From positions 1-64,000 of the forward strand of contig CANIBQ010000018.1 in NCBI GenBank assembly GCA_947465645.1: DNA of 64,000 nt, in the 5' to 3' direction. A program made the position numbers and the translations under genes. This document shows, in pieces, positions 1 through 64,000 of the stretch (position 1 is the stretch's first letter; every line of letters begins with the position of its first letter). The notes under the pieces were generated by a model. That model worked only from the letters and a program-made list of their open reading frames with translations. It made no database searches and was not told the DNA's origin. Origin of the DNA: Acidobacteriota bacterium. GTDB lineage: Bacteria; Acidobacteriota; Vicinamibacteria; Vicinamibacterales; UBA2999.

Positions 1-1098
1 CCTCGCCGCCGGGCTCAAGCGGGCCGGATCGATGCGGTTGCCGACGAAGGGGGCGCCGAGGGTGATCTGCCGCCCGGCGTTGCACGCCGGCGACGCGAGC
101 GTCGTGAAGTCGCCCGCGAGCATCTGCGCCGTCGGCACGTACGAAATGTTGCTGGTCGGCACCTGGCGCAGGATGGTGCCCTGGTAGCCGGCAAAAAAGA
201 ACAGCCTATCGCGGACGATGGGGCCGCCAATCGTGCCGCCGAACTGGTTGCGCCGGAGGCCGTCGTCCTTCTGCTTGCCATCGGGTCCAATCGCAGCAAA
301 ATGTTCCGGCGCGTTGAACCGCCGATCGCGCAGGAACTCGAAGCCGCCCCCGTGGAACACATTGGTCCCCGATCTGGTCACGGCGTTTACCGACGCGCCC
401 GACTTCACGCCGTTGTCGGCGGAGAGGCCGCTGGTCGCTACCTGGAACTCCTGGAGCGCATCGGGGAACGGCATCGGCAGCCCGGCGTTGGTCTGCGGGT
501 TGTTGTGCTCCGCCCCGTCCAGCGTGTAGGCCACGCCGCCCGGCAGACCGCCGGCGACCGATATGTACACGCCGCCCGGCACGCCACGTTCCGTCGCGCC
601 CGTCTGCACGGCGGCGCCGGCGAGCACGATCAGGTCGGTGACCTGGCGTCCCTGCAGCGGGAGTTCGAGAATGTTCTCGTTGGAGACGACCGAGCTGATG
701 CCGGCGCTGCGGACGTCGACGAGCGGCGCCGCGGCGTCGACGGTGACCGACTCCTCCAACGAGCCAACGGCAAGCGACGCGTTGACGGTCGGCGCCCCGC
801 CCACCTGCAGGACGATGCCCGTCTGCACGTAGGTCTTGAATCCCTGGAGCGCGACTTCGAGTCGGTACGGCCCGGTCGGAAGGTTCGTCAGCAGGTAGCC
901 TCCCGTTTCGTCGCTCACGGCCGTGCGAACGAGGCCCGTGTCGGTCTGCGTCACGGTGACGGTCACGCCGGGCAGCACGGCGCTGCTTTCATCGCGAACC
1001 GTGCCGCTCAGCTGCGCTGTTGCCTGGGCCCAGGCGGCGCCGGCGGTCAGCAGAAGGATCAACGCGCCGCGCGAACAATAGCTCAGACACCCATTCAT
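1..1098 (-). CDS. Oar-like TonB-dependent receptor, N-terminal part (cut by window edge)
   Basis: Reading leftwards from ATG at 1098, 366 codons stay open to the window edge. A signal peptide ends near AAWA-Q (residues 21-25). A carboxypeptidase-regulatory-like beta-sandwich domain follows at about 28-110, with motifs SGAVLPGVTV-like and LPTGPYRLEV. The plug region then carries ELPLQGRQVTDL and YTLDGAEHNNP, and the barrel begins with FGGTIGGPIVRDRLFFF. This is the same subfamily as the receptors at 34136, 37466, 42113 and 50020. Receptors of this type sit in the outer membrane and take up or display large substrates using TonB energy; the substrate is unknown. A GAGGA ribosome site lies 9 bases before the start. 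The C-terminus lies outside the window. Confidence 0.9.
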   Translation of the reverse strand, partial: MNGCLSYCSRGALILLLTAGAAWAQATAQLSGTVRDESSAVLPGVTVTVTQTDTGLVRTAVSDETGGYLLTNLPTGPYRLEVALQGFKTYVQTGIVLQVGGAPTVNASLAVGSLEESVTVDAAAPLVDVRSAGISSVVSNENILELPLQGRQVTDLIVLAGAAVQTGATERGVPGGVYISVAGGLPGGVAYTLDGAEHNNPQTNAGLPMPFPDALQEFQVATSGLSADNGVKSGASVNAVTRSGTNVFHGGGFEFLRDRRFNAPEHFAAIGPDGKQKDDGLRRNQFGGTIGGPIVRDRLFFFAGYQGTILRQVPTSNISYVPTAQMLAGDFTTLASPACNAGRQITLGAPFVGNRIDPARLSPAAR

Positions 1099-1524
1099 GA
1101 TGTGAAATCCTCGTGTCCTCTGGTAGGCATACGGTCACTCACGGAGCGTCGGCTGTGACGCATCCGGACCCTTATTGGCTTATTGGCAGAACTGGGATTA
1201 GCCGAACGACGGGATATCGGAGGGTATCCACCGTTTCGGAAGGCCCTTATACCACTTATGGCGTGAAGTGCCAAGCCAGAGGTCGGCTTGCCGCCGCTGA
1301 TACCCACTCGCTGCGCTCGACGGATTATTGCGCAGTTCCTTCTCGGCGGCATCAACCTTAATGGTTGCTCTCTTCACCGCCGAATGCGGTCAGATGGTCA
1401 CCATCCGGGCAGCAAACGCCCATCAGGTTCGTCAGAAGTCGCAGCGAGCTGGGGGTGTGTATCCCACTGGTGGCTTGACGCGCAAGGAAGAGTGACAGGA
1501 AGCGATACAGTGACTTGAACATGA
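1099..1524. other. Intergenic region, no gene seen
   Basis: Several short open frames cross this 426-base stretch but none has a signal peptide, a recognisable motif or a convincing ribosome site. On the minus strand it must hold the promoter of the receptor starting at 1098; I see a doubled CCAATAAG motif (about 1168-1185 when read on the minus strand) but no clear -35/-10 pair. It precedes the cytochrome remnant at 1525. Confidence 0.5.
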
Positions 1525-2207: not shown

Positions 2208-3032
2208 ATGAGAACGCATTCCATCGTCGTCGCGGTCGTCGTGCTGGCGTGCCTGGCCACTATGGCGGGTCGCGCTCAGCAGCGCAGAGGCCCCGAGGGG
2301 TTCCTTCGCGAGGGCATCCCCAGGATGCCGAATCCTCCTGGACCGGCTCCCACCCGCGATCTCTCAGGGGTGTGGGTTGGACCGATAGACAACAAGCCCG
2401 ATCCGGTGCCGCCGATGACGCCGGCCGGCGAGGCGCTGTTCAAGGAGCGGAAAGCCTACGGGGACGCCAGCAGGAACGCCGTGGGAGCGTCCAACGATCC
2501 GTTCGTCACCTGCGATCCTCTCGGGTTCCCTCGCAATCTGCTGGCCCATGCCATTAGCAGCCGCGGGCGCTTTATTTTCGGTTCCGCCCCGGACCGTCTC
2601 CTTGTCGCCTACGAGCATCAGCGCGTCTGGCGTGAGATCTGGATGGACGGACGGGCGCTCCCAAAAGCCGTGGACGTGAGGGGTGCGCCCGAGTCCAGAT
2701 ATTACGGCCATTCAGTTGGTCGCTGGGAAAACAACAATACGCTGGTCATCGATACGACCGGCGTGGATGAACGACCCTGGCTGGATGAAGCCGGTCGCCC
2801 GCGCAGTTCCTCAGCACGCATCCAGGAGCGGTACACGCGTCTCGACCAGTACAACCTGCAACTGACGGTCACGATCGACGATCCAAAGTTCTACGCGAAG
2901 CCGTGGACGTGGATGCGGGCGAACTTCTACTGGGTGATGGGCCAGGAATTTGCCGAGACGTTCTGCATCCCGTCAGAGGGGATCTCGTATCGCGACTCGC
3001 TCGCCAGGCCGTCGGGGATCGAGATCCGATAG
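2208..3032 (+). CDS. DLSGxW-family exported protein
   Basis: 274 residues, with a signal peptide cut near GRAQ. It is the first member in this window of a family I cannot name. Family features: DLSGVW near residue 50; NDPxxxCxPxGxPR with one conserved Cys; an EIWMDGRALP motif; GHSVGRWENNNTLVIDT; a TIDDPKxxxKPWT segment; and a final Cys near the C-terminus (ETFCIP). The GxW near the start followed by many short beta strands recalls lipocalin-like barrels, which is inference. It is a close relative of the next gene; the gap to the DUF6152 stop upstream is 3 bases. No catalytic motif is apparent, so a binding or chaperone role is as plausible as an enzyme. Confidence 0.85.
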   Translation: MRTHSIVVAVVVLACLATMAGRAQQRRGPEGFLREGIPRMPNPPGPAPTRDLSGVWVGPIDNKPDPVPPMTPAGEALFKERKAYGDASRNAVGASNDPFVTCDPLGFPRNLLAHAISSRGRFIFGSAPDRLLVAYEHQRVWREIWMDGRALPKAVDVRGAPESRYYGHSVGRWENNNTLVIDTTGVDERPWLDEAGRPRSSSARIQERYTRLDQYNLQLTVTIDDPKFYAKPWTWMRANFYWVMGQEFAETFCIPSEGISYRDSLARPSGIEIR

Positions 3033-3117: not shown

Positions 3118-3978
3118 ATGCGAAAGACGAGCACGGGCATACTTGCAGGCGTCGCGGGCGTGGTGTTCCTTTCGGCGCTGGCAGCCGCTCAGGCCGCTCC
3201 AGACAATGCGCCACGTTCGCCGTGGAAATATTATCCGGAGGATGCGAGGGCGAACGTCGGACCCGGCGGGCCCGCGCCCAGGCGCGATCTCACCGGGACA
3301 TGGGCAGGAGAGTCATCTGGCGCGGGTGTGAAGAGGCTCGTCCCCCCCGAAAGGCCGGCACCGCTGACGCCGTTGGGCAAGGAGTTGTTCGATCGGAACA
3401 AGGCGGAAAGCAGTGGGGTCCTCATCGGCCAGTCGAACGATCCTCATGTCCGATACTGCGATCCGTTTGGTTTTCCCCGGAACATGAACGACCAGATTCG
3501 TTCGATGACGATCGCGGCCGGGCCGGACCGGACCTTTATCATGCTGAAGTTCATGACCATCTGGCGTGAGATCTGGATGGACGGGCGAGCTCTTCCTACC
3601 AATGTCGGCGGCAGGGGCAGGGACGCCCACGATCCGACCTACAATGGCTACTCGGTGGGCCGCTGGGAGGACGATTACACCTTCGTGGCGGAGACCACCG
3701 GCATGGCCGCGGAGACCTGGGCCACCGAAGGTGGGTATCCCCATAGCGTCGATGCGCGCGTGACCGAACGCTTTCATCGCTCCAGCAAGAACGATCTGAC
3801 GCTGACGATGACCATGGACGACCCGAAGCTCTACACCAGGCCGTTGCGTCTCGGGGAAGTGCATTTCCGGTGGATTCCGAGCCAGACCTTCTTCGACTTT
3901 ACCTGCATTCCATCGTCGGTCCAGCAGTACTTGAGGGAAGTGGCCGATCCGGCCAGCAATCCCGGTGCGGCACGCTAG
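3118..3978 (+). CDS. DLSGxW-family exported protein
   Basis: 286 residues from the second of two adjacent ATGs (3115 and 3118). The AGGGAG at 3106-3111 gives better spacing to 3118, and the signal peptide (RKTSTGILAGVAG, cut near AAAQA) starts there. Conserved points are DLTGTWAGES, SNDPHVRYCDPFGFPRN, EIWMDGRALP, GYSVGRWEDDYTF, MDDPKLYTRPL and FTCIPSS. It is the nearest relative of the gene at 2208 (shared CDPFGFPRN/CDPLGFPRN and C-terminal CIPS), so the two look like a tandem duplication. A C7 run at 3342-3348 lies early in the gene. Its stop overlaps a repeated intercistronic leader that leads into the DUF6152 gene at 4019. Confidence 0.85.
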   Translation: MRKTSTGILAGVAGVVFLSALAAAQAAPDNAPRSPWKYYPEDARANVGPGGPAPRRDLTGTWAGESSGAGVKRLVPPERPAPLTPLGKELFDRNKAESSGVLIGQSNDPHVRYCDPFGFPRNMNDQIRSMTIAAGPDRTFIMLKFMTIWREIWMDGRALPTNVGGRGRDAHDPTYNGYSVGRWEDDYTFVAETTGMAAETWATEGGYPHSVDARVTERFHRSSKNDLTLTMTMDDPKLYTRPLRLGEVHFRWIPSQTFFDFTCIPSSVQQYLREVADPASNPGAAR

Positions 3979-4018: not shown

Positions 4019-4447
4019 GTGAAAAAACAAATTCTGATGGTGGTGGTCTTGGTCGCCGGACTCGCGGTGATTGACACTCCATCGTTTGCGCATCACGGTA
4101 ACGCGGCGTTCGACCTGGGCAAGCCGGTCGTGTTGAAGGGCGCCGTGGTGACGGAGTTCCGCTGGATCAATCCCCACCCGCTCATCAAGGCGGATTACAA
4201 AGACGAAAAGGGCAACGTCCAGCAGTGGACGATGGAACTGGGTAGCACGGTGTCGGCTCAGCTCATCGGCTGGAGCAGAACGACGCTTCAGCCCGGAGAC
4301 GTCGTCACGCTGTACGTCTGGCAGGCGAAGACGGGCGTTCACGTTGGACGCTTCAACAAGGTCGACCTTGCCGACGGCACGACGATGCGCGATACCCAGA
4401 CCGGCGGCGACGACGGCGGGCGCGCGGACTCGGGCCTGCGTCAGTAA
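4019..4447 (+). CDS. DUF6152 family exported protein (GTG start)
   Basis: 142 residues from GTG at 4019, chosen because GGAGG (4008-4012) sits 6 bases upstream and the signal peptide begins there (VKKQILMVVVLVAG). The more upstream ATG at 3965 would add a charged extension overlapping the previous gene. The cleavage site S-F-A gives a mature start of His25-His26. NPH lies at 51-53, followed by GWSRTTLQPGDVV and LADGTTMRDTQTGGDD. The C-terminal DTQ-GGD block is shared only with the protein at 1779. Here the pair order is reversed, DLSGxW first and DUF6152 second. It is the last gene of the plus-strand group 1779-4447; the cytochrome gene at 4525 is convergent. Confidence 0.88.
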   Translation: MKKQILMVVVLVAGLAVIDTPSFAHHGNAAFDLGKPVVLKGAVVTEFRWINPHPLIKADYKDEKGNVQQWTMELGSTVSAQLIGWSRTTLQPGDVVTLYVWQAKTGVHVGRFNKVDLADGTTMRDTQTGGDDGGRADSGLRQ

Positions 4448-4524: not shown

Positions 4525-5688
4525 TTAGCGAGCGGCCACTGGCGCCGTGGGTCTGACGAACCTGGCGTCGTCAATGGCGACGTTCGGCTGCAACGACGTG
4601 ATCTTGTACGTGGACCGCCCATTGGTCCACGTCACCTCCCACGTATAGGGAAGCTTCACGCCTAGGCCAGGGATGTCGCGGTAATCGGAATACACGACAC
4701 TAATCGGCACCGTGCCCACGGCCGTCGTGGAATACCGCACGGATCGCACCAGCAAGCCTGTCTCTTTGTCGAAATACAGTTTGACGCTGGACCCTGCCGG
4801 TGTCTTTCCTTCGATCACATCCACCGGGCGGCCGTCAATCCTGAGCGACGGGAAGCCGGTTCGCCAGTTCGTCAGGACCTGCTTGATCTGACCGGGGAAC
4901 GCCAGTTGGGCGTCCAGACGGGCTCCCTCCAGTGCCGCCCCTACCAGCGAGATCAGCGGCACGGGCGTCAGGTCAGAGGGACCCGCAGCCCACGCCTCCC
5001 GCCCAGCAGAGGTGGTCGTGCTGTCGCCAGCGCGCATGTGAACCACCGCGGCGCGCCTGTCCGGCGCCTTGGCGTATACGTCCATCGGAACTTGCTCGAA
5101 GTCGGAATCAAACCCCTCGGACGTCCCCTTGGCCGTATAGCTGGTGAGCCTGGCCGCAGCCGCGGCGCCGCCGATGGCCTGGATGTACCGATCCAGGATT
5201 TGCTCGGCCGTAATCGTGATGCGCACGTTCGCATTCGGTGCGATCTCATCGGGATCGTCGTCCGGCGGCACGGAGTACTGCACCGCCAGGCTGGGGATGG
5301 CTTTGGGCCTTGGGCTGCCGCGATGGCAGGTGTAGCAGGTTACGGTCGGTGCCCCACTGAAGTTGGCGCGATTGATCGCGTTCACCATCAGGATCATCCG
5401 GAGCGTTGTCTGCTTGAGGGGTGTATCCTCGGCGTAGCTCGCCCAATCGCCGCCGCCGGCGTGGCAATCCGAGCAGTTCAGAGCCAGTGAGGCTGAGAAA
5501 AAGCCCATCGTCTCCATGAATTCCTTGACGGGAATCCCACGGAGTAGCCGGACGTTCTTGAAGGCCTGCTCCGACAACATCGGCTTCGGCTCGGCTGGAG
5601 CGGCAGGGCCAGTCTGGCCGCGAGCGAGCGTCGCTCCCAGCAGGCAGAGTGTCAGCGTTCCCGCCAAATACAAGCGCCGTCCGCTCAC
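4525..5688 (-). CDS. Diheme c-type cytochrome, reaction-centre-cytochrome-like family
   Basis: 387 residues with a signal peptide ending near ARGQ. Two heme c motifs, CSDCH (72-76) and CYTCH (118-122), lie in the arrangement LSEQAFKNVRLLRGIPVKEF...MGFFSASLALNC. This is typical of the proteins databases label photosynthetic reaction centre cytochrome c subunit family, which also occur widely in non-phototrophs. Residues from about 160 on form a second domain (EQILDRYIQAIGG, then beta-rich, YFDKETGLLVRSVRY, YSDYRDIPGLGV) resembling outer-membrane lipoprotein-sorting/LolA-like folds. It is probably a periplasmic electron carrier or redox sensor; the partner is unknown. Paralogues are the intact gene at 19434 and the remnant at 1525. 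Confidence 0.88.
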   Translation of the reverse strand: MSGRRLYLAGTLTLCLLGATLARGQTGPAAPAEPKPMLSEQAFKNVRLLRGIPVKEFMETMGFFSASLALNCSDCHAGGGDWASYAEDTPLKQTTLRMILMVNAINRANFSGAPTVTCYTCHRGSPRPKAIPSLAVQYSVPPDDDPDEIAPNANVRITITAEQILDRYIQAIGGAAAAARLTSYTAKGTSEGFDSDFEQVPMDVYAKAPDRRAAVVHMRAGDSTTTSAGREAWAAGPSDLTPVPLISLVGAALEGARLDAQLAFPGQIKQVLTNWRTGFPSLRIDGRPVDVIEGKTPAGSSVKLYFDKETGLLVRSVRYSTTAVGTVPISVVYSDYRDIPGLGVKLPYTWEVTWTNGRSTYKITSLQPNVAIDDARFVRPTAPVAAR

Positions 5689-5899: not shown

Positions 5900-6331
5900 A
5901 TGACTTCCAGGACAATATCCGGGTTCATCCTTGGCGTGTTCGCGGTCGCCTGCGCGGCCACCGCTCCCGTGTCGGCGCACCACTCGTTCAGCGCGGAGTT
6001 CGACGAGAAGAAATGCGGTGAGTACACGGGCACCCTGGTCGGCGTCGACTGGCAGAACCCGCATCCGTATTTCTTCGTCGAAGGCAAGGGCGCGACCGGC
6101 GCGCAGGCGAAGCTGACGTTCCAGACCTCGTCGATCGCGAACATGACCCGCGGCGGCACGCCGAGGGCGTACTTCATGAAGAACATGGGGAAGACCGTGA
6201 TTGTCAGGGCCTGCTCGTCGTTGAACGGCACCGACAACCGGTTCGCCGCCTCGTGGGTCAAGCTGCCCGAGGAAACCGTCCCGCACCGCACCGGCCAGGA
6301 CGTCGAACGTATCTTCGGCTCGAATAATTAG
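5900..6331 (+). CDS. DUF6152 family exported protein, two-cysteine subtype
   Basis: 143 residues. The signal peptide is cut after V-S-A, giving a mature start of His27-His28. NPH is at 53-55. Unlike the copies at 1779 or 7342 it has a cysteine at 39 (EKKCGEY) and another in VRACSSLNGTDNRFA, and ends with the TGQDVERIFG motif. This subtype is shared with the pair at 45422 and 53338, so a disulfide in the mature protein is likely. The next gene begins 64 bases on; the gap is filled by an inverted pair of REP-like hairpins, and the TAG stop abuts the first hairpin. Confidence 0.9.
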   Translation: MTSRTISGFILGVFAVACAATAPVSAHHSFSAEFDEKKCGEYTGTLVGVDWQNPHPYFFVEGKGATGAQAKLTFQTSSIANMTRGGTPRAYFMKNMGKTVIVRACSSLNGTDNRFAASWVKLPEETVPHRTGQDVERIFGSNN

Positions 6332-6395: not shown

Positions 6396-7256
6396 ATGAG
6401 ATTGCGAGTCGGCAATCGGGCGCAGGTGTTCGGGGTTCTTGGCGCGGTCGCTCTGCTGTCCAGCGTGGCGGTGGCCCAGCGCCCGGCGGCGCCGGCAGGG
6501 GCGGACCAGAAGCCGCTGGTCGAGGCGATCGGCACGACCGATCCGGGTCCGCTCCCTCCGGGTGGACCGACGCCGAGGATGTCCGACGGCAAGCCGGATT
6601 TCTCGGGCATCTGGTTCTCCGGCGTCATCGGTCGCCCAAGTGCGTGGAGCCGGACGCGGCCGGAGCGGATCGTCGAGGATCCGGTGCCGTTCAAGCCCGA
6701 GGTCGCCGCGAAGATCAAGAGCCTCACCCGCGCCGAGCTGGAGGCGCTGGATCCCACGGTCAACTGCCTGCCGCGTGGCGTACCGGGCATGTTCACCATG
6801 AACCCGCACCCGAGCGAGATCGTCACCAAGCCCGGCACCTTCATCCAGCTGGTCGAAGCGGGCAACCAGTGGCGGAAGATCCACACCGACAAGCGGCCGC
6901 ATCCGGAGTACCCCGACCCGCTGTTCAACGGCAACAGCAGCGCGTGGTGGGACGGTGACACGCTGGTCATCGACTCGGTTGGCTTCGACGAGCGCACCTG
7001 GGTGTCGGGCGGCGCCTGGCACCATAGCGACGAGCTGCGGGTGATCGAGCGAATCCGCCGCCCCTCGCTTAACTACCTCGAATATCAGTTCTCGGTGACT
7101 GACCCCAAGGTCCTCACCAAGCCATGGACCTCCGGCTGGCGGAAGTTCTCGCTGGCACAGGTCGACGATCGGCTGCTCGAGAACTACTGCACCAACGAAC
7201 AGAATTCTGACCAGTTCCGCAAGCTGGTCGACCAGGAGGCCGGGAAGAAAGAGTGA
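6396..7256 (+). CDS. DLSGxW-family exported protein
   Basis: 286 residues. GGGAG (6385-6389) is 6 bases before ATG. The signal peptide is cut near VAVAQ, followed by a Pro-rich linker with PLPPGGPTPRMSDGKPD and then DFSGIWFSG. Other family points are NCLPRGVPGMF (conserved Cys), KIHTDKRPHPEYPDP, the variant WWDGDTLVIDSVGFDERTW, VSGGAWHHSDELRVIERIRR, VTDPKVLTKPWTSGW and ENYCTNEQN. The PPGGPTPR linker and the YCTNEQN end place it with the proteins at 45850 and 53766, which also follow two-cysteine DUF6152 genes. This partner-subtype matching suggests the two proteins contact each other. Confidence 0.87.
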   Translation: MRLRVGNRAQVFGVLGAVALLSSVAVAQRPAAPAGADQKPLVEAIGTTDPGPLPPGGPTPRMSDGKPDFSGIWFSGVIGRPSAWSRTRPERIVEDPVPFKPEVAAKIKSLTRAELEALDPTVNCLPRGVPGMFTMNPHPSEIVTKPGTFIQLVEAGNQWRKIHTDKRPHPEYPDPLFNGNSSAWWDGDTLVIDSVGFDERTWVSGGAWHHSDELRVIERIRRPSLNYLEYQFSVTDPKVLTKPWTSGWRKFSLAQVDDRLLENYCTNEQNSDQFRKLVDQEAGKKE

Positions 7257-7341: not shown

Positions 7342-7725
7342 ATGAAATGGAAGCCCTTTCTGCTGGTAGTGGCCGCCGTCGCGGTGGCGATTGGTTCGCA
7401 GTCCGCTCTCGCACATCACGGTGGCGCGGCCTTCGACCAGTCCAAGCAGGTCACGTTCCAAGGCACTGTCACCGAGATGCAGTACGCCAATCCGCACGTC
7501 CTCGTGTACTTCGACGTGAAGGACGGCGAGGCCGCGGGACAGAAATGGTCAGGCTGGCTGACGGCGCCCAACAAGCTTGCGCGCGCGGGCTGGAACAAGC
7601 GGACGCTGAACCCCGGCGACCAGATCACGATTAGCGGCACTCCGCACAAGGATGGCAGCCACATCATCCAGATCCGGAAGCTCGTAGGTCCGGCGGGCGC
7701 TGCACTGCCGCTCTCCGAGAACTAG
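7342..7725 (+). CDS. DUF6152 family exported protein
   Basis: 127 residues, no cysteine in the mature part. The signal peptide is cut after A-L-A, so the mature protein begins His25-His26-Gly-Gly. NPH is at 50-52, followed by GWNKRTLNPGDQITISG and an HKDGSHIIQIRKL strand. A CAGAGGAG ribosome site lies upstream. It is the shortest typical member here, lacking the DTQ-type tail. Ten bases separate it from the DLSGxW gene at 7736. Confidence 0.9.
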   Translation: MKWKPFLLVVAAVAVAIGSQSALAHHGGAAFDQSKQVTFQGTVTEMQYANPHVLVYFDVKDGEAAGQKWSGWLTAPNKLARAGWNKRTLNPGDQITISGTPHKDGSHIIQIRKLVGPAGAALPLSEN

Positions 7726-7735: not shown

Positions 7736-8551
7736 GTGACCACCGGCGTCATCCGTTGCGGACTTGCGGGCGCCGCGGTCCTGGCTGTTTCGGTGGCGCT
7801 GATCGCGCAAACCGCTCCGGCGCCGCAGGGCGGCCGTGGCGCCGTCGTCAGCGCGACCCCCGTGCTGCCGTCGCCGCCCGCGCCGCCGCGCGACATCTCC
7901 GGCGTCTGGATGATGCGAAATCCTCCCGGGTCAAACCGCGGCTGGACCAACTTCACCTTCACCGACCCGGCGCTGCAGGCCAAAGGCATTCCCGCTCTTA
8001 CCCCCTGGGGGGAGGCGCGGAAAAAGGAAGCCAAGGACTCCAACGGCGGCACCTACCGCCTGGACGAGACCAACGACCCGGTACTGACCAAGTGCCACCC
8101 GCCGGGCGTGCCGCGCGTCTATTTTCATCCCTACCCGTTCGAAGTCGTCCATACGCCGAAGCAGACGCTGCTGATTTTCGAGTACGACCACTTCCTCCGG
8201 CGCGTCCACACCGACGGGCGCGCGCTGCCGACCGATCCCGAGGCGCTGTGGATGGGGACGTCGGTCGGACGGTGGGAGAACCCGACGACGTTCGTCGTCG
8301 AGAGCAACGGGTTCAATGACCGGACGTGGCTCGATCGGATCGGCCATGCGCATACCGAGGAGCTGAAAGTCACCGAGCGCTTCCGGCGCATCGACCGTGA
8401 CCACCTGCACCTCGATATCACGATGGAAGACCCGAAGGCGCTGGCAAAGCCCTGGACCACGACGTTCTTCTACGAGCTGCGCCCAGGCTGGGAGCTCGGC
8501 GAGATCTCCTGCTCCGGCGACTACCTCGATTACTCGAAAGTCGAAAAGTAA
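7736..8551 (+). CDS. DLSGxW-family exported protein (GTG start)
   Basis: 271 residues from GTG at 7736, with AGGGGGA (7724-7730) 5 bases upstream. The signal peptide is cut near IAQT. Motifs are DISGVWMMRN, MTPWGEARKK-like (LTPWGEARKK), NDPVLTKCHPPGVPRVYFHP, RRVHTDGRALP, GTSVGRWENPTTFVVES, RTWLDRIGHAHTEELKVTERFRR, MEDPKALAKPWTT and EISCSGDYLDY. It is almost the same type as the minus-strand gene at 13512-14303 (shared NDPVLTKCHPPGVPR or CYPPGVPR, GTSV, CSGDYL), although that one sits between two TBDT genes and has no DUF6152 neighbour. It closes the plus-strand group that ends in the terminator at 8588. Confidence 0.87.
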   Translation: MTTGVIRCGLAGAAVLAVSVALIAQTAPAPQGGRGAVVSATPVLPSPPAPPRDISGVWMMRNPPGSNRGWTNFTFTDPALQAKGIPALTPWGEARKKEAKDSNGGTYRLDETNDPVLTKCHPPGVPRVYFHPYPFEVVHTPKQTLLIFEYDHFLRRVHTDGRALPTDPEALWMGTSVGRWENPTTFVVESNGFNDRTWLDRIGHAHTEELKVTERFRRIDRDHLHLDITMEDPKALAKPWTTTFFYELRPGWELGEISCSGDYLDYSKVEK

Positions 8552-20642: not shown

Positions 20643-20851
20643 TCTCGCTCCATCGATTGCCCGTAAAGCGCGGTCGCTAACGGAGTTGCGCGACGACTCT
20701 ACCATAGGCACAGCGGTGCGACCGTGCCGCCTCGACAGTGTAGACAAGGGGGTTGCCGAGGACGTATTCTCCGAGTCGCACTACTGTATTCGTCCGCCCG
20801 CTCTTACTCGCGACACTGTTTCCTCGCGACGACCCATTGGAGGGTTTGCAG

Positions 20852-37453: not shown

Positions 37454-37465
37454 GGGGAATTTGTG

Positions 37466-45409: not shown

Positions 45410-45421
45410 GAGGTCCCCATC

Positions 45422-45847: not shown

Positions 45848-45849
45848 CG

Positions 45850-50019: not shown

Positions 50020-53325
<3,306 letters not shown>

Positions 53326-53337
53326 GAGGAGGACGTC

Positions 53338-53763
53338 ATGAAAATCACATTCGGCTTCTTATTCGCCGTGCTGCTGGCGTCGGGGTTGGCGCCGTCGCCG
53401 GCCTCCGCGCATCACGCCTTTGCGGTGGAGTTCGACGCCAAGAACTGCTCCGACATCGCGGGGGTGCTGACCAAGGTCGACTACCAGAACCCGCACGCCT
53501 ACATCTTCGTGGACGCGAAGGAAAACGGGCAGACGGTGCCGAAGACCTTCCAGCTGTCGTCCACCTCGAATCTCAAGCGCGGCGGCGCGACGCTGCCGGT
53601 GATGAATGCGAGCCTCGGCAAGGAAGTGATGGTCCGGGGCTGCGCCTCGAAGAACGGGACCGACAACCGCTACGCGGCGTCGTTCATCAAGCTCGCCGAC
53701 GGCACCGTGCAGCGTCTCGGGCAGGATGTCGAAGGCGTCTTCGGCACCAAGATCTGGAGATAG
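53338..53763 (+). CDS. DUF6152 family exported protein, two-cysteine subtype (second copy)
   Basis: 141 residues; TAGGAGGAGG lies upstream, including the stop of the receptor gene. The mature form (from His25-His26) differs from the copy at 45422 only by Glu96 for Asp96; three other changes (K2, F5, G16) are in the signal peptide. NPH 51-53, Cys37 and the second Cys are conserved. DNA identity includes most third codon positions, although the receptor gene in front and the DLSGxW gene behind are clearly more diverged, which points to gene conversion. Two bases separate it from the next start. Confidence 0.92.
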   Translation: MKITFGFLFAVLLASGLAPSPASAHHAFAVEFDAKNCSDIAGVLTKVDYQNPHAYIFVDAKENGQTVPKTFQLSSTSNLKRGGATLPVMNASLGKEVMVRGCASKNGTDNRYAASFIKLADGTVQRLGQDVEGVFGTKIWR

Positions 53764-53765
53764 CC

Positions 53766-54615: not shown

Positions 54616-55626
54616 CTACCGGGGTTCGGACTGCGCGGCCGGTTGCTGGCCGCGCGGCCCGAGCTTCCCGAAGCCGCCGTCGTTGCAGGTGAGATTCGGC
54701 GCCCCGCCAGGCAGTCCCTGCCGCTCGATCCAGCCACAGCAATACCGATCGCACGACGTCGGCGGCTGGTAGCTGTTCCTGATCTTCTTGCGATACTCCG
54801 GGTACAGCGCTTCCGCGTAGCCCATCGCCGCTTCCCTCGGAATATTGAGCGTACGGGTCATGAAGTCCGCTTCAGGATTCTGGCCGGGCAGGTAGTGCGG
54901 CACGATGCCAGAGTCCTCTAACCGCGGGATCTCATTGGCGGTGTTGCAGATGACACGGCCGCCCCCCTGGCCGCCGCGAGGATCCAGCTCCCACACCCGG
55001 CTCACCACGTGTGGCTCGGTGAGATAGATGGGATCGTCCTGGATCGTCGTGACCGTCAGCATGTTGTCCTGCAGGGTGAGATGGGTCGTGAATGTCGTTC
55101 GATCGCTCCCGGGAATCCCGACCCCGCGGCGTATCCACTGCGTCTTGACGTGCGTCGTACGCGCCGTCAGGGTGTCCCCTTCCCACCGGCCGGTGGTGAA
55201 ACCCGCCGACAGGTGCTGCGCGTTTGGAGACGGGTGCGGCCGCCCGTCCATCCAGATCCGGATGTTGGCCCTCAGGTAGTCGCCGCCGAGCACCCACGCG
55301 AGCACGCGGCCGTCCGCGTCCACCTCGCTCCAGATCCGCAGTCCGAGCGGACGGTACTGGATGACCCACGGTGACTGCGCTAGGCACTGGCGCTCGAAGG
55401 TCGAAGGCAGGTTCGAGGTGTACAGCAGCGCCTTGGCGCGCCCTTCGTCGCTGAGCGCCATTCCCGTGTAATCACCGAGGTCCGAGCCCGGGCCGCGCTC
55501 GTTGAAGTCCTCGTACATCCGGATCTGGTAGGTGCCGTTGAGATCGACCTGCGCGTACGCCGGCCCGGCTGTAGGCAGCAGCGCGCACAGGAACGCCAGG
55601 GTTTGAGTCAGGGTGATTCGGTTCAT
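54616..55626 (-). CDS. Divergent DLSGxW-family exported protein with Cys-rich C-terminus
   Basis: 336 residues from ATG at 55626; an in-frame start at 55662 lies within the previous gene and lacks a signal. The signal is cut near AYAQ. The entry motif is VDLNGTYQIRMYEDF (Tyr in place of Trp). A loop ERGPGSDLGDYTGMALSDEG is specific to this subtype. The family core is seen as IRIWMDGRPHPSPNAQHLSA, GRWEGDTLTARTTHVKTQWI and QDDPIYLTEP. The C-terminal part is different: CNTANEIPRLEDSGIVPHYL, then CDRYCCGWIERQG and LTCNDGGFGKLG. Six Cys suggest disulfides or a metal site. It is a close duplicate of 58425-59417 and last of three minus-strand genes starting at 57397. Confidence 0.83.
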   Translation of the reverse strand: MNRITLTQTLAFLCALLPTAGPAYAQVDLNGTYQIRMYEDFNERGPGSDLGDYTGMALSDEGRAKALLYTSNLPSTFERQCLAQSPWVIQYRPLGLRIWSEVDADGRVLAWVLGGDYLRANIRIWMDGRPHPSPNAQHLSAGFTTGRWEGDTLTARTTHVKTQWIRRGVGIPGSDRTTFTTHLTLQDNMLTVTTIQDDPIYLTEPHVVSRVWELDPRGGQGGGRVICNTANEIPRLEDSGIVPHYLPGQNPEADFMTRTLNIPREAAMGYAEALYPEYRKKIRNSYQPPTSCDRYCCGWIERQGLPGGAPNLTCNDGGFGKLGPRGQQPAAQSEPR

Positions 55627-55628: not shown

Positions 55629-56393
55629 TCAGAACCTCGCGTCGCAGGGAGTGGGATCCCACTTGCCGCCGTCAGGCTCCTTCTTGAAATGCAGCGCCGT
55701 CATGAAGGGGTTCTGCAGGTAGGTCGGATCGACGACGTTGTTGGTGACGACCAGGTACTGATCGCCGTTGGCTTCCCGGTGCAGGTTCCAGTACTCGGTG
55801 AACACCGTGTTCGCGCTGTAGGGAACGCCGTTCTTGCGCAGGTATCCCGGCCGCAGGCGCGTGGTCACCGACTTCATCGATCCGAAACGGGGGGCGCCCG
55901 CCGCGCCCCGTCCACGTCCTCCGGCATTCACCCACTGGGCGGTCGAGGCGCCTTGCCACGTCGGGGCGCCTGACGCCGCCGGCGCGCCGCGGAACTCGAA
56001 CAGCCTGGTCTGCATCCCGTAGTCGGACTCGAGCTTCAACGTGTCATCGTCGAGCCAGGTGATGTGCAGGCGCGTCGGCCCGCGCATCAGGCCGGGCGCA
56101 CCGTAGGCGCGGCATTGCTCGCCCGCGGCTTCGTCCTTGGCCGGATCCCAGGCGTCGGCGACTTTCTGCGCCGCGAGGTTCATCGGGATGCTGGGATAGT
56201 CGCCCTTGGCGGGCGTGATCATCCGCCAGCGCCAGTCCTCCGAGATGATCGCCACCCAGTAACCGGTGAGATCGATCGGCGCCGTCGCGCGCGGCGTGGG
56301 CGCGGGCGGCTGGGCGGCGCGGCCCTGCGCTCCCATGCCCGTGGACGCCAGGATAACGAGACCGGCGAGCAGCGCTGCCTTGATGATGATCAC
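55629..56393 (-). CDS. Divergent DLSGxW-like exported protein (GTG start)
   Basis: 254 residues from GTG in a GTGA overlap with the gene upstream; the signal peptide is IIIKAALLAGLVILASTGMG. The entry motif is IDLTGYWVAIISEDWRWRMI, then QCRAYGAPGLMRGPTRLHI. The DGR block is missing; TLKLESDYGMQTRLFEF and WQGASTAQWVNAGGRGRGA stand at the place of the GxW block. TRLRPGYLRKNGVPYSANTV and EYWNLHREANGDQYLVVTNN follow. The end WDPTPCDARF holds a second Cys. It is the most remote relative in the window and membership rests mainly on DLTGYW, the C-x-GAPG motif and the neighbourhood. Confidence 0.78.
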   Translation of the reverse strand: MIIIKAALLAGLVILASTGMGAQGRAAQPPAPTPRATAPIDLTGYWVAIISEDWRWRMITPAKGDYPSIPMNLAAQKVADAWDPAKDEAAGEQCRAYGAPGLMRGPTRLHITWLDDDTLKLESDYGMQTRLFEFRGAPAASGAPTWQGASTAQWVNAGGRGRGAAGAPRFGSMKSVTTRLRPGYLRKNGVPYSANTVFTEYWNLHREANGDQYLVVTNNVVDPTYLQNPFMTALHFKKEPDGGKWDPTPCDARF

Positions 56394-57397
56394 GATTTCA
56401 CCGCCGGGTTCTTGAGCCCGTTGTAGATCGCCTCGACGAACATGTCAGTGGTCCAGGGTCCTGTGTCCGAGCCGTACCGCCGCCGGTAGCCCGCCGTTGG
56501 ATTCGCGGCTTTCACCTGCTGCAGCGTCTGGCCCTTGTCGATCAGGGCCTGGATGTTGTTCTTGATGATCGTGACCATGTCCCGGTATTCCACCAGCTCC
56601 GCGTAATCCGCCACGCGGCCATGTCCCGGCACCAGCAGCGTGCGGCCTTCCTTCAGGACCAGCGGCATCGCCGGCACGGTCAGCTCGAGAAGGCGGTTGA
56701 GCGCCTCGAGCTCGCCCTGGATGCTGCCGCCCTTCGCGGGATCGATCACCGGGAACTGGCGCAGGTCGATGATATCGCCGGTGGCAATGACGTCGGCGCG
56801 GCGGAACATCACCATGCTGTCGCCATCGGAATGCGCGCCCACCTGCCGCAGCATCTGCACCGCATCGTCATTCAGGTACATCGATCGATGGCGCGCGGTG
56901 TAGGTTTCGGTCGGCAGCGCCGCGGTGTCATAGGCCGGCTCGCTGCCGCTCGGCGCGCTCATCCGCAGCATCACGTTTTCATGCGACAGGATGGTGGCCT
57001 GCGGCGCGTCGCTGAACGTGTCAGGGTTGAGCTGCATGCCGGCCGCGCCGACGATCTCATTCCCGCCGACATGGTCCGCGTCCGCGCTGGTGTTGAGAAT
57101 CAGGCGTATCGGCTGCGACGAAATCGCCTTGACCGCCTCCACGACCCTGGCGGCGGTGGCCGCCGAACCGCTGTCGACGAGGATCACCCCGTCTTCGCCG
57201 ACGTGGACGGTGATATTGCCGCCGGCGCCGAAAATCACGTGGACGTTCGGCCGGATCTGGATCGTCTCGAGCGCGGGCGTGTCGGCGGCGCGCTGCTGGG
57301 CAAAGAGGCTCTGCGCCGCGAGGCCGCCTACAAGCACGAGCGCCAGCGCGACCGCCCACGGCCGCGCTGCCGTGGCACGTATCATTGGTGAGGTCAT
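56390..57397 (-). CDS. Exported metallo-beta-lactamase-fold protein with altered metal site
   Basis: 335 residues from ATG at 57397, chosen for the signal peptide (AVALALVLVGGLAAQSLFAQ) though no strong ribosome site is seen. The MBL-fold layout is clear: VHVIFGAGGNITVHVGEDG, VILVDSGSA, then LNTSADADHVGGN where active enzymes have HxHxDH; here it reads S104-x-D106-x-D108-H109. Later ligands are present: H189 in GAHSDGDSMV, D208 in GDIIDL, and PGHGRV. The first two His are thus Ser and Asp, so the usual two-zinc site is doubtful. It is first in a three-gene group with two divergent DLSGxW proteins, the next start overlapping its stop by 4 bases. Confidence 0.85.
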   Translation of the reverse strand: MTSPMIRATAARPWAVALALVLVGGLAAQSLFAQQRAADTPALETIQIRPNVHVIFGAGGNITVHVGEDGVILVDSGSAATAARVVEAVKAISSQPIRLILNTSADADHVGGNEIVGAAGMQLNPDTFSDAPQATILSHENVMLRMSAPSGSEPAYDTAALPTETYTARHRSMYLNDDAVQMLRQVGAHSDGDSMVMFRRADVIATGDIIDLRQFPVIDPAKGGSIQGELEALNRLLELTVPAMPLVLKEGRTLLVPGHGRVADYAELVEYRDMVTIIKNNIQALIDKGQTLQQVKAANPTAGYRRRYGSDTGPWTTDMFVEAIYNGLKNPAVKS

Positions 57398-57488: not shown

Positions 57489-58397
57489 ATGAATCGAGCA
57501 TGGATGCGTTGGCCGCGTGCCGGCCGCGCGGCGCTGCTGACCCTGTTGCTTGCGCTCTCGAGTGAGCCGGCGCTGGCCCAGGTGGATCTCGCGGGTCTCT
57601 GGACCCCGTTGCCGCGCAACCAGGACGGGAGTGGGATGACCGGCGACGCCGCGGGCGTCCCGGTCACCGCGGAAGGCCGCTGGCGAGCCCAGGGGTGGTC
57701 GCCTGAGGAATTCGACGTAGCGGAATGGGTGTGCCGGCCGCACGCGTTTGATTATTCGCTAGAGGGCCCGCGTTCCTGGCTGCGATTCATCGCCGAAGTC
57801 GACCCCGCCACCCAGCAGCTGATCGCCTATCAAGGGCACATCGAGATGATGAGCCAGGCCGCGACGATCTGGATGGACGGCAGGCCGCACCCGCCGGCGG
57901 ATGCGCTCCATACGTGGAGTGGCTTCTCGACCGGAGTCTGGGAAGGCCCCGCGCTGGTCGTCACCACGACGCACCTCAAGGAGGCGTACATCCGGCGTTC
58001 AGGGCTGATGCGGAGCGACAAGGCGACCGTCCGCACACGATGGCGGAGGGTCGGCAACTACCTGCAGGCGACGTCGATCCTGTATGACCCGGTCTACCTC
58101 GCGGAGCCGTATGTGCGGAGCACGATGATGTGGGTCCACGACCCGACGATGGTGCTGCCTCCGTATCCCTGCGAAGAGGCGACTGAGACCGCGGTGCCGC
58201 GCGGCAAGGCGGCGCACTTCCTGCCGGGCCAAAGTCCATTGGCCGGGTTGGATCCGAAGGTGACCGATCGGTTTGGAACGCCCTACGAGGCGAGGCTCGG
58301 CGGACCGGAGTCGATGTACCCCGAGTACATCACCAAGATGAAGGCGTTTCCGCGGCCGGCCATCAGGGCAACGGGGGCCGCGGAAAGCGAGCCGTAG
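57489..58397 (+). CDS. Divergent DLSGxW-family exported protein
   Basis: 302 residues from ATG 57489 (GAGGA 57481-57485; a second ATG at 57504 has better spacing). The frame is open far upstream, across the divergent gene. The signal is cut near ALAQ. Motifs are VDLAGLWTPLPRNQDG, EWVCRPHAFDYSLEGPR, TIWMDGRPHPPADALHTWSG, FSTGVWEGPALVVTTTHLKE, LYDPVYLAEPYV, AHFLPGQSP and GPESMYPEYITKMKAFPRP. It shares the last blocks with the proteins at 54616 and 58425 (HYLPGQNP, YPEYRKKI) but lacks their Cys-rich end, so it is a shorter sister. The TAG stop belongs to the GTAG head of a REP-type hairpin. Confidence 0.83.
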   Translation: MNRAWMRWPRAGRAALLTLLLALSSEPALAQVDLAGLWTPLPRNQDGSGMTGDAAGVPVTAEGRWRAQGWSPEEFDVAEWVCRPHAFDYSLEGPRSWLRFIAEVDPATQQLIAYQGHIEMMSQAATIWMDGRPHPPADALHTWSGFSTGVWEGPALVVTTTHLKEAYIRRSGLMRSDKATVRTRWRRVGNYLQATSILYDPVYLAEPYVRSTMMWVHDPTMVLPPYPCEEATETAVPRGKAAHFLPGQSPLAGLDPKVTDRFGTPYEARLGGPESMYPEYITKMKAFPRPAIRATGAAESEP

Positions 58398-58424: not shown

Positions 58425-59417
58425 TTACCGGTCGGTCGCCGCTGGCTGACCGCGGGGACCGAGAGCGCCGAAGCCGCCGTCGATGCAGGTCAGGTCCGGC
58501 GCGCCTCCGGGCCTGCCTTGCCGTTCGATCCAGCCGCAGCAGTACCGGCCGCACGACGCCGGCGGCGTGTAGCTGCCCTTAATCTTTTTGCGGAACTCGG
58601 GATAGAGCGACTCGGCGTAACCCATCGCCGCCTCTTTCGGGAGGTTGTAGGTGCGGATCATGTAGTCCGCTTCCGGGTTCTGGCCCGGAAGGTAATGCGG
58701 CACGATGCCGTTGTCCTCCAGCCGCGGGATTTCGTTGGCGGTGTTGCAGATGCCTTCCTGGCCCTGATCGCCTCGGGGATCCATCTCCCAGACCCGGCTC
58801 ACGACGTGAGGCTCGGTGAGATAAATCGGATCCTCCTGGATCGTGGTGATCGTCAGCATCGAGTCGTTGCGCGTGATGTGCCAGGTGATCGTCGACTGGT
58901 CGCTGCCGGGCAGGCCGACCCCGCGCCGGATCCAGGCGGTCTTGAGGTGCGTCGTCCGAGCGGTCAGCGTGTCGCCTTCCCACCTGCCCGTCGTGAACCC
59001 GCCGGTCAGGTGCATCGCGTTGGGCGACGGGTGCGGGCGGCCGTCCATCCAGATGGTGATGGCGCCCCGCAGGTTGTCGCCGCCGATGATCCAGGCCTTG
59101 ACGTTGTTGCCGTCTGCTTCCGCTTCGCTCCAGATCTTGATGCCGCGCGGCCGGTACTGGGTTATCCCGGCTGACTGGGCCAGGCACTGGCGCTCGATCG
59201 TCGAAATCGTGTTCGAGGTGTACAGCAGCGCCTTCGCGCGTCCCTCATCCGTCAGGGGCATCCCGGTGAAGTCGCCGAGATCGGAACCCGGCCCGCGCTC
59301 GATGTAGTCTTCGTACAGTCGCGGCGCGTACGAGCCGGTGAGCTCGATTTGCGCGAGCGCCGGGATGCTCATCGCCAGCAGGGCACAGGTGAACGTGACG
59401 ATCCTCACGCGTTGCAT
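58425..59417 (-). CDS. Divergent DLSGxW-family exported protein with Cys-rich C-terminus
   Basis: 330 residues from ATG at 59417; no good ribosome site is visible (TTCTCCCCAC before ATG), and a start at 59459 is no better. The signal is cut near ALAQ. It aligns along its whole length with 54616-55626: IELTGSYAPRLYEDYIERGP, DLGDFTGMPLTDEGRAKALL, TIWMDGRPHPSPNAMHLTGG, GRWEGDTLTARTTHLKTAWI, CNTANEIPRLEDNGIVPHYL, CGRYCCGWIERQG, LTCIDGGFGALG. The two copies flank the MBL-fold and 57489 genes. The high conservation of the C-terminal Cys set suggests it is functional. Confidence 0.83.
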   Translation of the reverse strand: MQRVRIVTFTCALLAMSIPALAQIELTGSYAPRLYEDYIERGPGSDLGDFTGMPLTDEGRAKALLYTSNTISTIERQCLAQSAGITQYRPRGIKIWSEAEADGNNVKAWIIGGDNLRGAITIWMDGRPHPSPNAMHLTGGFTTGRWEGDTLTARTTHLKTAWIRRGVGLPGSDQSTITWHITRNDSMLTITTIQEDPIYLTEPHVVSRVWEMDPRGDQGQEGICNTANEIPRLEDNGIVPHYLPGQNPEADYMIRTYNLPKEAAMGYAESLYPEFRKKIKGSYTPPASCGRYCCGWIERQGRPGGAPDLTCIDGGFGALGPRGQPAATDR

Positions 59418-60181: not shown

Positions 60182-60580
60182 ATGAAGCGCTACCTCGTTG
60201 TGCCCCTTGCTCTTGCCGCGCTCGCCATCGGAGCGCAGGCGATGGCCCATCATTCCTTTGCGGCTACCTACCTCGAAGAGACCTCGGTCACGATCGAAGG
60301 CCAGCTCGTACAGTTCCTGTTGCGCAATCCGCACTCTTTCGTACACGTCAACGTGAAGGAAAAGGACGGCTCGACGGTCCGCTACGTCGTCGAATGGGGA
60401 TCCCCGGCGCAGCTGGGTGGCCAGGGCGTCACGCGGGACACTCTGAAGCCTGGCGATTTCGTCGTGATCAGCGGCAACCCCGGGCGTGACCCCGCAGACA
60501 AGCGCGTTCGCCTCCTCCAGTTCCGCCGTCCGAAGGATGGCTGGTCCTGGGGACTCCTCGCGAACGAGCGAGTCGACTAG
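60182..60580 (+). CDS. DUF6152 family exported protein
   Basis: 132 residues from ATG 60182 with GAGGAG about 10 bases upstream; the frame is open for a long way before, but the signal peptide (KRYLVVPLALAALAIGAQ) starts here. Cleavage after A-M-A leaves His23-His24-Ser-Phe. NPH is at 49-51 (RNPHSFVHVN, again a further His). GQGVTRDTLKPGDFVVISGN follows, then an unusual basic tail RVRLLQFRRPKDGWSWG. It has no DLSGxW partner; its neighbours are a PEBP-like gene and a TBDT. It resembles the cysteine-free copy at 40897 in the start of the mature part. Confidence 0.88.
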   Translation: MKRYLVVPLALAALAIGAQAMAHHSFAATYLEETSVTIEGQLVQFLLRNPHSFVHVNVKEKDGSTVRYVVEWGSPAQLGGQGVTRDTLKPGDFVVISGNPGRDPADKRVRLLQFRRPKDGWSWGLLANERVD

Positions 60581-63700: not shown

Positions 63701-64000
63701 GGTCACCACCGGCGTCGACCGATCGCTCGACGGGGTCGCAACCGGCACACAGCGCGTGAACCAGGTGATGGACAACGTCTACGGCGACAAGACGGTGACC
63801 AATTGGTTCAATCCGGCGGCGTTCGCGCAGCCGGCTCTGGGAACCCATGGCAATTCGACCTACAACGCCTATCTGGGGCCCACCAACAAGACTCTGGATC
63901 TCTCCCTGGTCCGGTCGTTCCGTTTCGGGAGCACCAAGCGGATTGAAGCGAGGGTTGAGGCGTTCAATGCGCTCAACTGGTTCCGGCCGGGGGATCCGGT
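60741..64000 (+). CDS. Oar-like TonB-dependent receptor, cut by window edge
   Basis: 1086 codons are in the window; CCAGGAGG (60726-60733) is 7 bases before ATG and the signal is cut near GWAQ. A carboxypeptidase-regulatory-like domain (SSGAVLPGVTVIAVQTETGF) is followed by a plug with VGATIDSEQVEALPLEGRNA, AYLLDGAGHNNAFDG, FPDALQEFKVETSTQNAQ and VSLVTKSGTNALHGDVF. The barrel has FGGVAGGPILRDKLFFF and YAQDTWRASDKVTVNLGVRW. Compared with subfamily A it has ETRNPSVGATIDSEQ instead of the ISxVVENERIVE block, so it is a side branch. The visible end EARVEAFNALNWFRPGDP is about 20-25 residues before the expected terminal Phe. Confidence 0.92.
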   Translation, partial: MNRFVRPLLGALLVILLGATSGWAQATAQINGTVADSSGAVLPGVTVIAVQTETGFRREVVTDESGSYALLNLPTGPYRLEASLSGFRAFSQTGIVLQVGSNPVIPVAMQLGSLEETVSVEASAPLVETRNPSVGATIDSEQVEALPLEGRNAVSLITLAGAAADTGNTSRSMTSSRGIAISGGQAFGVAYLLDGAGHNNAFDGFNMPLPFPDALQEFKVETSTQNAQNGVHAGGTVSLVTKSGTNALHGDVFEFARHHRFNATSPFAGVDPATGKRRSDGLVRNQFGGVAGGPILRDKLFFFGAYQTSRSTQTPADLVAFVPTAAMMGGDFTAFASPACNRGTQVTLRAPFVGNRLTPAQISPAALAISRQLPATTDPCGRVTYSSPTKPVETQSIGKVDWQISQNHSLFGRAMLTTTFWDPPFANNGNLLSASLGGRDSDARSLAIGDTMVLSNTMVNNVRFTYHYTNVHRTHTEYFGPEDVGIKTFSYLDDVTLIAVSNAFNLGLGTEFDAFYRPHTYAFSDDLTMIRGNHQFGFGGNLSLNDWKTRSNVRAAGGFTINGGVTGLSLADFMAGSVFEFRQATPFVLDATQKNFGVYAQDTWRASDKVTVNLGVRWEPWFPQQHQNEAIYSFDTARFLAGERSKVYPDALPGFTYPGDPNFPSKAGLNADWMNFQPRMGVSWDPFGDGKTSVRAGYGLSGDFISGQFFFDASQAWPFGYEERLTGAAVGPLDDPWGGAGRVNPFPVTLGTGLAKVPGGLFIQVPPDLNGTRVHTWNLGVQRQISDSTAVSATYLGNRMNNIWGDVTGNPALLPANPTAPCTLRTTTGTQTFPNCSTAPINLRREISQANPVAGQFIGYLDWVTDQGWQRYHGVLLSAQRRSSNGISANGNYTWSTCEGTAQSNTGGNPLNVGTGYTRPQSLLNPPSNADELYELDKGPCSSSPTHIFNFIASAETPQFDSTAVRLLASGWRLSGIFRASSGNALRVTTGVDRSLDGVATGTQRVNQVMDNVYGDKTVTNWFNPAAFAQPALGTHGNSTYNAYLGPTNKTLDLSLVRSFRFGSTKRIEARVEAFNALNWFRPGDP

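Follow-up and report, generated by a model that had tools for sequence, protein, structure and literature searches.

Exported DUF6152 and DLSGxW proteins form a repeated pair in acidobacterial and proteobacterial genomes, with a candidate N-terminal-histidine metal site

The stretch of Acidobacteriota DNA analyzed here (contig CANIBQ010000018.1, positions 1 to 64,000, referred to as the window) codes for many copies of two exported protein families, DUF6152 (PF19649) and an unnamed family that we call DLSGxW after its D-L-S-G-x-W motif. There is strong evidence that the two are halves of one functional exported unit, coded either by neighboring genes or by a single fused gene. We read this unit as an exported pair in which a metal domain with an N-terminal His and a predicted OB fold acts together with a calycin on small hydrophobic compounds, a tentative reading that falls slightly short of an even call. 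The first-pass annotation of the window had proposed a three-part module, with an Oar-like receptor as the third part of an uptake or sensing system. Two of these parts are partners far beyond chance, as seen in their co-occurrence, adjacency, and natural fusion, but the receptor is not a constant part, and nothing found favors a role in uptake or sensing.

Gene models of the 64,000-nucleotide window were rebuilt from codon-position GC, and the earlier counts of 10 DUF6152 proteins, 15 DLSGxW proteins, and 10 receptors were borne out. All ten proposed DUF6152 proteins match PF19649 (E≤0.1, best 8.6e-28), and the one scored against the curated cut-off reaches 67.8 bits versus 27. The 15 DLSGxW proteins, 11 typical and four divergent, align with an invariant G in the GxW motif, two invariant Cys residues, and an invariant D-P. 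A same-strand DLSGxW gene lies within 600 bp of nine of the ten DUF6152 genes, whereas random placement expects 24% (binomial p 2e-5, near-copies kept). The eight pairs listed previously are real, and a ninth is present in the reverse order, with DLSGxW (3118-3978) preceding DUF6152 (4037-4447).

The genome survey of co-occurrence and adjacency that the first-pass annotation had suggested links the two families far above chance. It included 199 genomes from the phylum of the Terriglobia genome G001, 249 Pseudomonadota, and 14 control genomes, and its counts are of presence or absence and are lower bounds, with 23 DUF6152, 12 DLSGxW, and 4 PF25183 candidates scored per genome in the 199-genome sample and 10 DLSGxW candidates per genome in the Pseudomonadota. 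DUF6152 and DLSGxW are each present in 22 of the 199 genomes and are together in 21 (Fisher p 4e-26), with G189 having DUF6152 alone and G098 DLSGxW alone. Among the Pseudomonadota, 22 genomes have DUF6152, seven with strong matches and 15 with weak single copies, and the six with DLSGxW all fall within the seven strong-match genomes, the other being G226. None of the 14 control genomes has a DUF6152 match.

A contig search with the window DLSGxW protein 23121 gave 36 named loci, and copy numbers are large in many of the 18 genomes (G001 to G018) from which 18 of these loci come. Matches to DUF6152 and DLSGxW, respectively, number 45 and at least 115 in G001, 40 and at least 99 in G002, at least 150 and at least 140 in each of G003, G005, and G008, at least 148 and at least 133 in G004, 100 and at least 142 in G006, 120 and at least 117 in G010, 125 and at least 133 in G016, and 73 and at least 140 in G017. 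Neither count is a lower bound in G007 (25 and 21), G009 (22 and 27), G011 (24 and 21), G012 (14 and 22), G013 (56 and 51), G014 (51 and 47), G015 (57 and 52), and G018 (2 and 26). The six DUF6152-richest genomes (G003, G004, G005, G008, G010, and G016) are only 2.6 to 4.6 Mb in size and have from 120 to at least 150 DUF6152 and from at least 117 to at least 140 DLSGxW matches, with fused genes counted in both. In proteobacterial genomes with both counts below the caps, set at 150 DUF6152 matches and 140 scored DLSGxW candidates, the ratio is about 1:1, and DLSGxW is in surplus in several acidobacterial genomes and in G018.

The two families are also physically linked outside the window. Loci L001 to L126 were picked by a DLSGxW or DUF6152 match, some of them overlapping, and only L127 to L166 were taken by contig number (G016 contigs C1 to C20, and G008 contigs C1 to C22 without C15 and C16, whose matches were already known). 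On the contigs taken by number, DUF6152 is fused to or beside a same-strand DLSGxW in 10 of 14 cases in G016 (6% expected) and in 22 of 25 in G008 (8% expected). After removal of 13 near-copies from a set of 231 DUF6152 domains, 50 of the 218 unique domains are fused in frame to DLSGxW and 128 have a same-strand DLSGxW within 600 bp, with 12 others having one on the opposite strand and 28 having none. The separate genes occur in both orders, with DUF6152 first in 73 and DLSGxW first in 55. The divergence of separate partners is correlated (n=122, r 0.52, with none of 500 shuffles as high), as it is within the named loci (n=32, r 0.82), other Pseudomonadota (n=15, r 0.84), and Acidobacteriota (n=18, r 0.56), each with 0 of 500 shuffles; the correlation is also high in the window (n=9, r 0.83, 1 of 500 shuffles), and G003 reaches only r 0.27 (n=17, 7 of 500).

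The natural fusions are organized as a signal peptide, a DUF6152 (OB) domain, a linker, and a DLSGxW barrel, read without a stop codon in the ten inspected, some of which are truncated by contig ends. DUF6152 is N-terminal in all 50, which are not independent events; this constant order, together with the two orders of the separate genes, is what a requirement for a free N-terminal His would predict. All fusions seen come from proteobacterial loci, those of Gammaproteobacteria and Rhodospirillaceae among them, and none is present in the window or in the acidobacterial loci fetched. On a DUF6152 tree of 106 columns, in which 95 of the 227 inner branches are open, the fused label requires at least 12 changes, four of them forced by well-supported branches, and fusion has thus been gained or lost several times. 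One 15.6-kb contig (L161, G008:C17) has 11 DUF6152 and 10 DLSGxW domain matches, mostly in fused genes.

The predicted start of the mature DUF6152 domain is highly conserved. Removal of 15 near-copies and five sequences without the domain start from 255 matches leaves 235 complete domains, and all 235, including all 47 fused ones, have His-His directly after the hydrophobic core of the signal peptide (scored by script). The preceding residue is Ala in 208 of the 235 and A, G, S, or T in 233, and a Pro-His follows 18 to 45 residues (about 27) after His-His in 232. The ten window proteins, aligned uncut, share seven invariant residues, in the columns A-H-H, P-H, and two G; three of the seven are His and none is Cys or Met. 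Window and locus rows of a wider alignment were trimmed at the His, which is first there by construction; the uncut window alignment and the count of 235 are independent of this trimming. His is accordingly placed as the first DUF6152 residue after predicted signal-peptide cleavage, as in histidine-brace proteins, and the His-His and Pro-His motifs constitute a candidate metal site.

Structure models predict, with good model confidence, that DUF6152 is a small OB barrel and that DLSGxW is a calycin barrel of the fatty-acid-binding-protein type. The DLSGxW model is an up-and-down beta barrel of the calycin (fatty-acid-binding-protein and lipocalin) type with GxW at its N-terminal edge; D-L-S-G-x-W occupies model positions 33 to 38, and position 31 aligns with residue 1 of 5h9a. 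A GxW at the first strand is what we take to be the calycin-family position, and the model matches it. None of the 15 window DLSGxW proteins matches a calycin Pfam family (E≤0.1) or a calycin sequence in the PDB, none matches NCBIfam, and the only Pfam match at E≤0.1 is a chance-level one to SH3_4 (0.091); a known enzyme identity, sought in these same three databases, thus yielded no meaningful match. A PDB sequence search with DUF6152 gave a weak match to an adhesin (6xi3), and CusF and CcmE are not among the matches listed, a listing that excludes nothing.

A simpler form of DUF6152 has a different partner. In ordinary Pseudomonadota, DUF6152 occurs as a single, weakly matching copy that adjoins DUF6644 (PF20349) in 17 of 17 loci (L106 and L170 to L185), on the same strand, tens of bases apart, and without DLSGxW. 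DUF6644 is a small membrane protein whose first predicted span (assigned by eye) carries an invariant His. It is present in 16 of the 249 Pseudomonadota, all 16 within the 22 that have DUF6152 (Fisher p 1e-20), and a DUF6644 profile of our own adds five of the six remaining DUF6152 genomes. Sixteen of 17 DUF6644-partnered rows of the DUF6152 tree lie in one 18-row clade with a support of 96, with L173 and L185 too short to enter. Neither partner is beside the single strong DUF6152 of G226 (L105) or beside two extra copies (L186 and L187), all three of which fall outside the weak single-copy class. There is no other conserved neighbor of the single-copy form among the 101 of 102 neighboring genes scanned, the best family being present in 4 of 101. 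Plasmids of Novosphingobium, Sphingobium, and Sinorhizobium have mixed loci with both DLSGxW and DUF6644, and on a Croceibacterium plasmid the unit adjoins a TonB receptor. The window yielded no DUF6644, and its DUF6152 at 60182-60580 branches with one from G046 close to the DUF6644-type clade, at a weakly supported fork.

The receptors are only occasional neighbors of the pair. Ten are present in the window, two of them truncated by its edges, and their description as Oar-like holds for some. Among five scanned with Pfam all have CarboxypepD_reg and three have PF25183 (OMP_b-brl_4); the receptor at 10332 (-) has CarboxypepD_reg but neither PF25183 nor a plug, and that at 25829-27970 (-) has a classical Plug and TonB barrel and is not Oar-like. 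Four others resemble the scanned five by BLAST, and 60741 (+) was judged from its start only. Three Oar-like receptors do head triplets, as previously described: 37463-40780 (+; open reading frame, 56% identical to 42113) precedes the pair 40897/41288, 42113-45409 (+) precedes 45422/45850, and 50020-53325 (+) precedes 53338/53766, the latter two receptors being placed by open reading frame and BLAST. However, the triplets 42113-46665 and 50020-54605 are the same unit in two diverged copies, with 79% identity at the DNA level, and the three therefore represent two independent cases. Between these copies the receptors share 76% protein identity and the DLSGxW proteins 69%, both with a synonymous divergence (dS) of ∼0.7, whereas the DUF6152 proteins share 97% with a dS of 0.16, a pattern that resembles gene conversion in the middle gene.

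Beyond the window, PF25183 is present in all 199 sampled genomes (198 over the cut-off), against 22 with DUF6152, and in 3 of the 14 control genomes, and its presence thus says nothing about the pair. It is matched in 14 of the genomes G001 to G018 and in none of G013 to G016, which have 51 to 125 DUF6152 each; the six DUF6152-richest genomes have 0 to 4 matches, and acidobacterial genomes have at least 30, as do the DUF6152-rich G006 and G017. With receptors of three sequence clusters counted, 11 of the 146 pairs outside the window have one no more than 1 kb away (near-copies kept, and 26 of the 146 in loci of ∼3 kb), compared with 4 of the 9 window pairs. The constant linkage of receptor and partners expected of a TonB-receptor uptake system was not found, and the universality of the receptor, the DUF6152-rich genomes without it, and the low adjacency rule it out as a constant third part.

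The nine window pairs are on the plus strand, and unless noted otherwise the genes were placed by alignment, with PF19649 for DUF6152. DUF6152 at 1779-2204 (+; 9.3e-19, predicted mature start HHG) is paired with the predicted calycin at 2208-3032 (+), 5900-6331 (+) with 6396-7256 (+), and 7342-7725 (+) with 7736-8551 (+); both members of the reversed pair are on the plus strand, and the start codon of its DUF6152 is uncertain. DUF6152 genes 20852-21217 (+) and 22768-23124 (+) overlap their DLSGxW partners at 21214-22095 (+) and 23121-23858 (+). In the triplets, DUF6152 40897-41286 (+; mature part 40966-41283 modeled as an OB fold) precedes DLSGxW 41288-42076 (+; 41351-42073 modeled as a calycin), and the nearly identical DUF6152 genes 45422-45847 (+) and 53338-53763 (+), placed by PF19649 and pairwise comparison, precede DLSGxW 45850-46665 (+) and 53766-54605 (+). 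DLSGxW genes also occur at 13512-14303 (-), which is flanked by two receptors and has no DUF6152 (open reading frame and alignment), and at 23921-24703 (-). The divergent four are at 54616-55626 (-; DLNGTY, with a long C-terminus), 55629-56393 (-; DLTGYW), 57489-58397 (+; DLAGLW), and 58425-59417 (-; ELTGSY), and the DUF6152 at 60182-60580 (+; PF19649 and tree) has no DLSGxW. Tandem DLSGxW-DLSGxW proteins were seen by eye elsewhere (P0121, P0122, P0124, P0125, and P0231), and P0125 and P0231 seem to fuse the 54616 type to the 55629 type, which are also neighbors in the window.

The statement that there are few other genes is only partly right, as the window also has a respiratory operon and nine further genes outside the three families. 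The operon (28154-34020) is like Qrc or alternative complex III and codes for cytochrome c and c7-type proteins, a molybdopterin subunit (QrcB, 307 bits; cut-off 440), an iron-sulfur subunit (QrcC, 231 bits; cut-off 400), and NrfD-like and ActD-like subunits assigned by eye. The NrfD-like protein is 87% identical to that of G046, the nearest of 15 compared genomes, which is in the 199-genome sample and has 34 DUF6152 matches; this kinship makes an acidobacterial origin of the window probable. Photosynthetic reaction-centre type cytochromes are coded at 4525-5688 (-; PF02276 match, NCBIfam below cut-off only) and, by eye, at 19434-20747 (-), and all four genes of a reaction-centre-type cytochrome cluster (L034 among them) lie within 1 kb of a pair. 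A fused major facilitator superfamily and spermidine synthase membrane protein (NF037959) is at 17421-19421 (-), and an exported protein with a metallo-beta-lactamase (MBL) fold (PF00753), a recurrent neighbor elsewhere, is at 56390-57397 (-). The latter was considered as a quinoprotein-relay hydrolase and rejected, its best TIGR04559 score being 75.8 bits versus a cut-off of 280.

Pfam scans of genes within 700 bp of pairs included 109 of 150 neighbors in Pseudomonadota and all 115 in Acidobacteriota, from script-made gene calls with some wrong frames. They show MBL-fold proteins (8 and 5), pyrroloquinoline quinone (PQQ) dehydrogenases (5 and 4), TonB barrels (6 and 3), and, in Pseudomonadota, five sulfatases. 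Of the 15 members of the MBL cluster, 12 have a DUF6152 or DLSGxW gene at most 1 kb away, versus 356 of 1,176 genes overall (p 1e-4), and pairs on a Sphingobium plasmid are beside annotated monooxygenases. These MBL, PQQ dehydrogenase, sulfatase, and monooxygenase neighbors point weakly to catabolism. The 109 and 115 neighbors matched 96 and 116 Pfam families, and the 25 most frequent include no metal-homeostasis family.

In the mechanism that we favor, DUF6152 and DLSGxW would be exported as two halves of one unit, separate or fused, and the N-terminal His of DUF6152, once freed, would chelate a metal, with Cu(II) the likeliest ion, in the manner of histidine-brace and other N-terminal-His proteins. 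The DLSGxW barrel would hold a small hydrophobic compound, and the metal domain would act on this compound, or bind together with it, in the periplasm; the unit would serve to break down many organic compounds, each class handled by its own pair, and the large copy numbers would follow from this, and the simpler single-copy DUF6152 would work with DUF6644 instead. Parts of this scheme differ in strength. From its sequence DUF6152 likely holds a metal through the freed N-terminus, and from its model DLSGxW likely holds a small hydrophobic molecule; that the metal acts on the held molecule is plausible, the handling of a metal or chelate being the rival to this step, and the number of genes is best explained by different ligands for each pair. 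G018, with its great excess of DLSGxW, and L036 are exceptions to the pairing rule, and joint duplication alone could produce the correlated divergence of the partners. The most specific form of the proposal, a new class of secreted metalloenzyme with a His-His copper site on an OB barrel, a calycin partner presenting small hydrophobic molecules, and more than 100 paralogues per genome for periplasmic breakdown on a one-pair-per-substrate basis, we consider unlikely.

Metal scavenging would use the same two domains differently, with the calycin binding a metal chelator, the N-terminal-His OB domain taking the metal, and DUF6644 or other membrane proteins carrying it on. Siderocalin, a calycin, binds a metal chelator, and CopC is a periplasmic N-terminal-His protein that hands metal to the membrane protein CopD. 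The invariable proximity of single-copy DUF6152 and DUF6644 is an arrangement like CopC-CopD or the permease-joined N-terminal-His "anglerase" domains of PMC12537917, in which DUF4198 and DUF6702 appear to be metal carriers, and some pairs are near TonB receptors. However, metal-homeostasis families are absent from the commonest neighbors, more than 100 copies per genome are hard to account for by metal supply, and the profile comparison of DUF6644 with CopD gives a probability that varies with the set used, 42% with a mixed set of 16 CopD sequences that includes weak matches and 2.7% with the nine best; we regard scavenging as rather unlikely. The motifs could instead have nothing to do with metal, His-His and Pro-His serving in docking or structure and the pair being a ligand-binding or envelope-protection unit like the BOF-type periplasmic OB proteins. 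Binding is the usual role of OB and calycin folds, and DUF6152 has no invariant Cys or Met, but the weight of His among the invariant residues, with two at the start expected for the mature protein, the constancy of His-His, and the N-terminal position of DUF6152 in every fusion make this reading similarly doubtful. A three-part uptake or sensing system of a diversified receptor and two periplasmic partners is favored by the receptor-headed triplets and the receptor-adjacent window pairs, yet with receptors that are universal in the sample, unlinked to the pair, and missing from G013 to G016 it is highly improbable; it is contradicted as a general rule, and single loci such as 42113-46665 could fit it.

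The exported pair would be categorically new if it is an enzyme. Three functionally uncharacterized families, DUF6152, the unnamed DLSGxW family, and DUF6644, are tied by co-occurrence, adjacency, and natural fusion. To our knowledge the DUF6152 and DLSGxW sets are among the largest exported paralogue sets, and their size argues for a role central to these organisms; if metal dependent, the N-terminal-His metal site would also, as far as we know, be the first on an OB scaffold. In the open-licence literature searched, no paper was found that names DUF6152 (PF19649) or DUF6644 (PF20349), or that combines a histidine brace, copper, and an OB fold; DLSGxW has no name to search by.

Several known systems share parts of this organization. 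In lytic polysaccharide monooxygenases (LPMOs) with a carbohydrate-binding module, the N-terminal His-metal domain comes first and the substrate-binding domain second, the same order as in the natural fusions, although the folds differ; no polysaccharide link for the pair turned up, and no search was aimed at one. The DUF6152-DUF6644 form resembles CopC-CopD in that a periplasmic N-terminal-His protein adjoins a multi-span membrane protein, but the fold is different and there is no CopC among the Pfam matches of the ten window DUF6152 proteins. DLSGxW differs from fatty-acid- and retinol-binding proteins in being bacterial and exported, in its conserved Cys pair, in its length of ∼240 residues with insertions, and in having no detectable sequence match to them. 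In a histidine brace a Cu ion is held by an N-terminal His and a second His, as described in PMC10952591. Histidine-brace and other N-terminal-His proteins (LPMO, CopC, DUF4198, DUF6702, Ang-1, and Ang-2) are like DUF6152 in their export, in a His predicted to be first after cleavage, and in further conserved His residues. In the SignalP training set 2.6% of the entries have a mature protein that begins with His, and the four families found by this feature are metalloproteins, with redox activity that is not significant for DUF6702 and only weak for DUF4198, according to PMC12537917. The Ang proteins described there have two domains with the N-terminal-His domain first, as in the DUF6152-DLSGxW fusions, and the fold is a beta-sandwich in DUF4198 and Ig-like in DUF6702 (PMC12537917), whereas the OB barrel predicted for DUF6152 is not the fold of a described class. 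N-terminal-His metalloproteins are the nearest known kind, and the pair is set apart from them by its predicted fold, a doubled rather than single His, a calycin partner, and very many paralogues.

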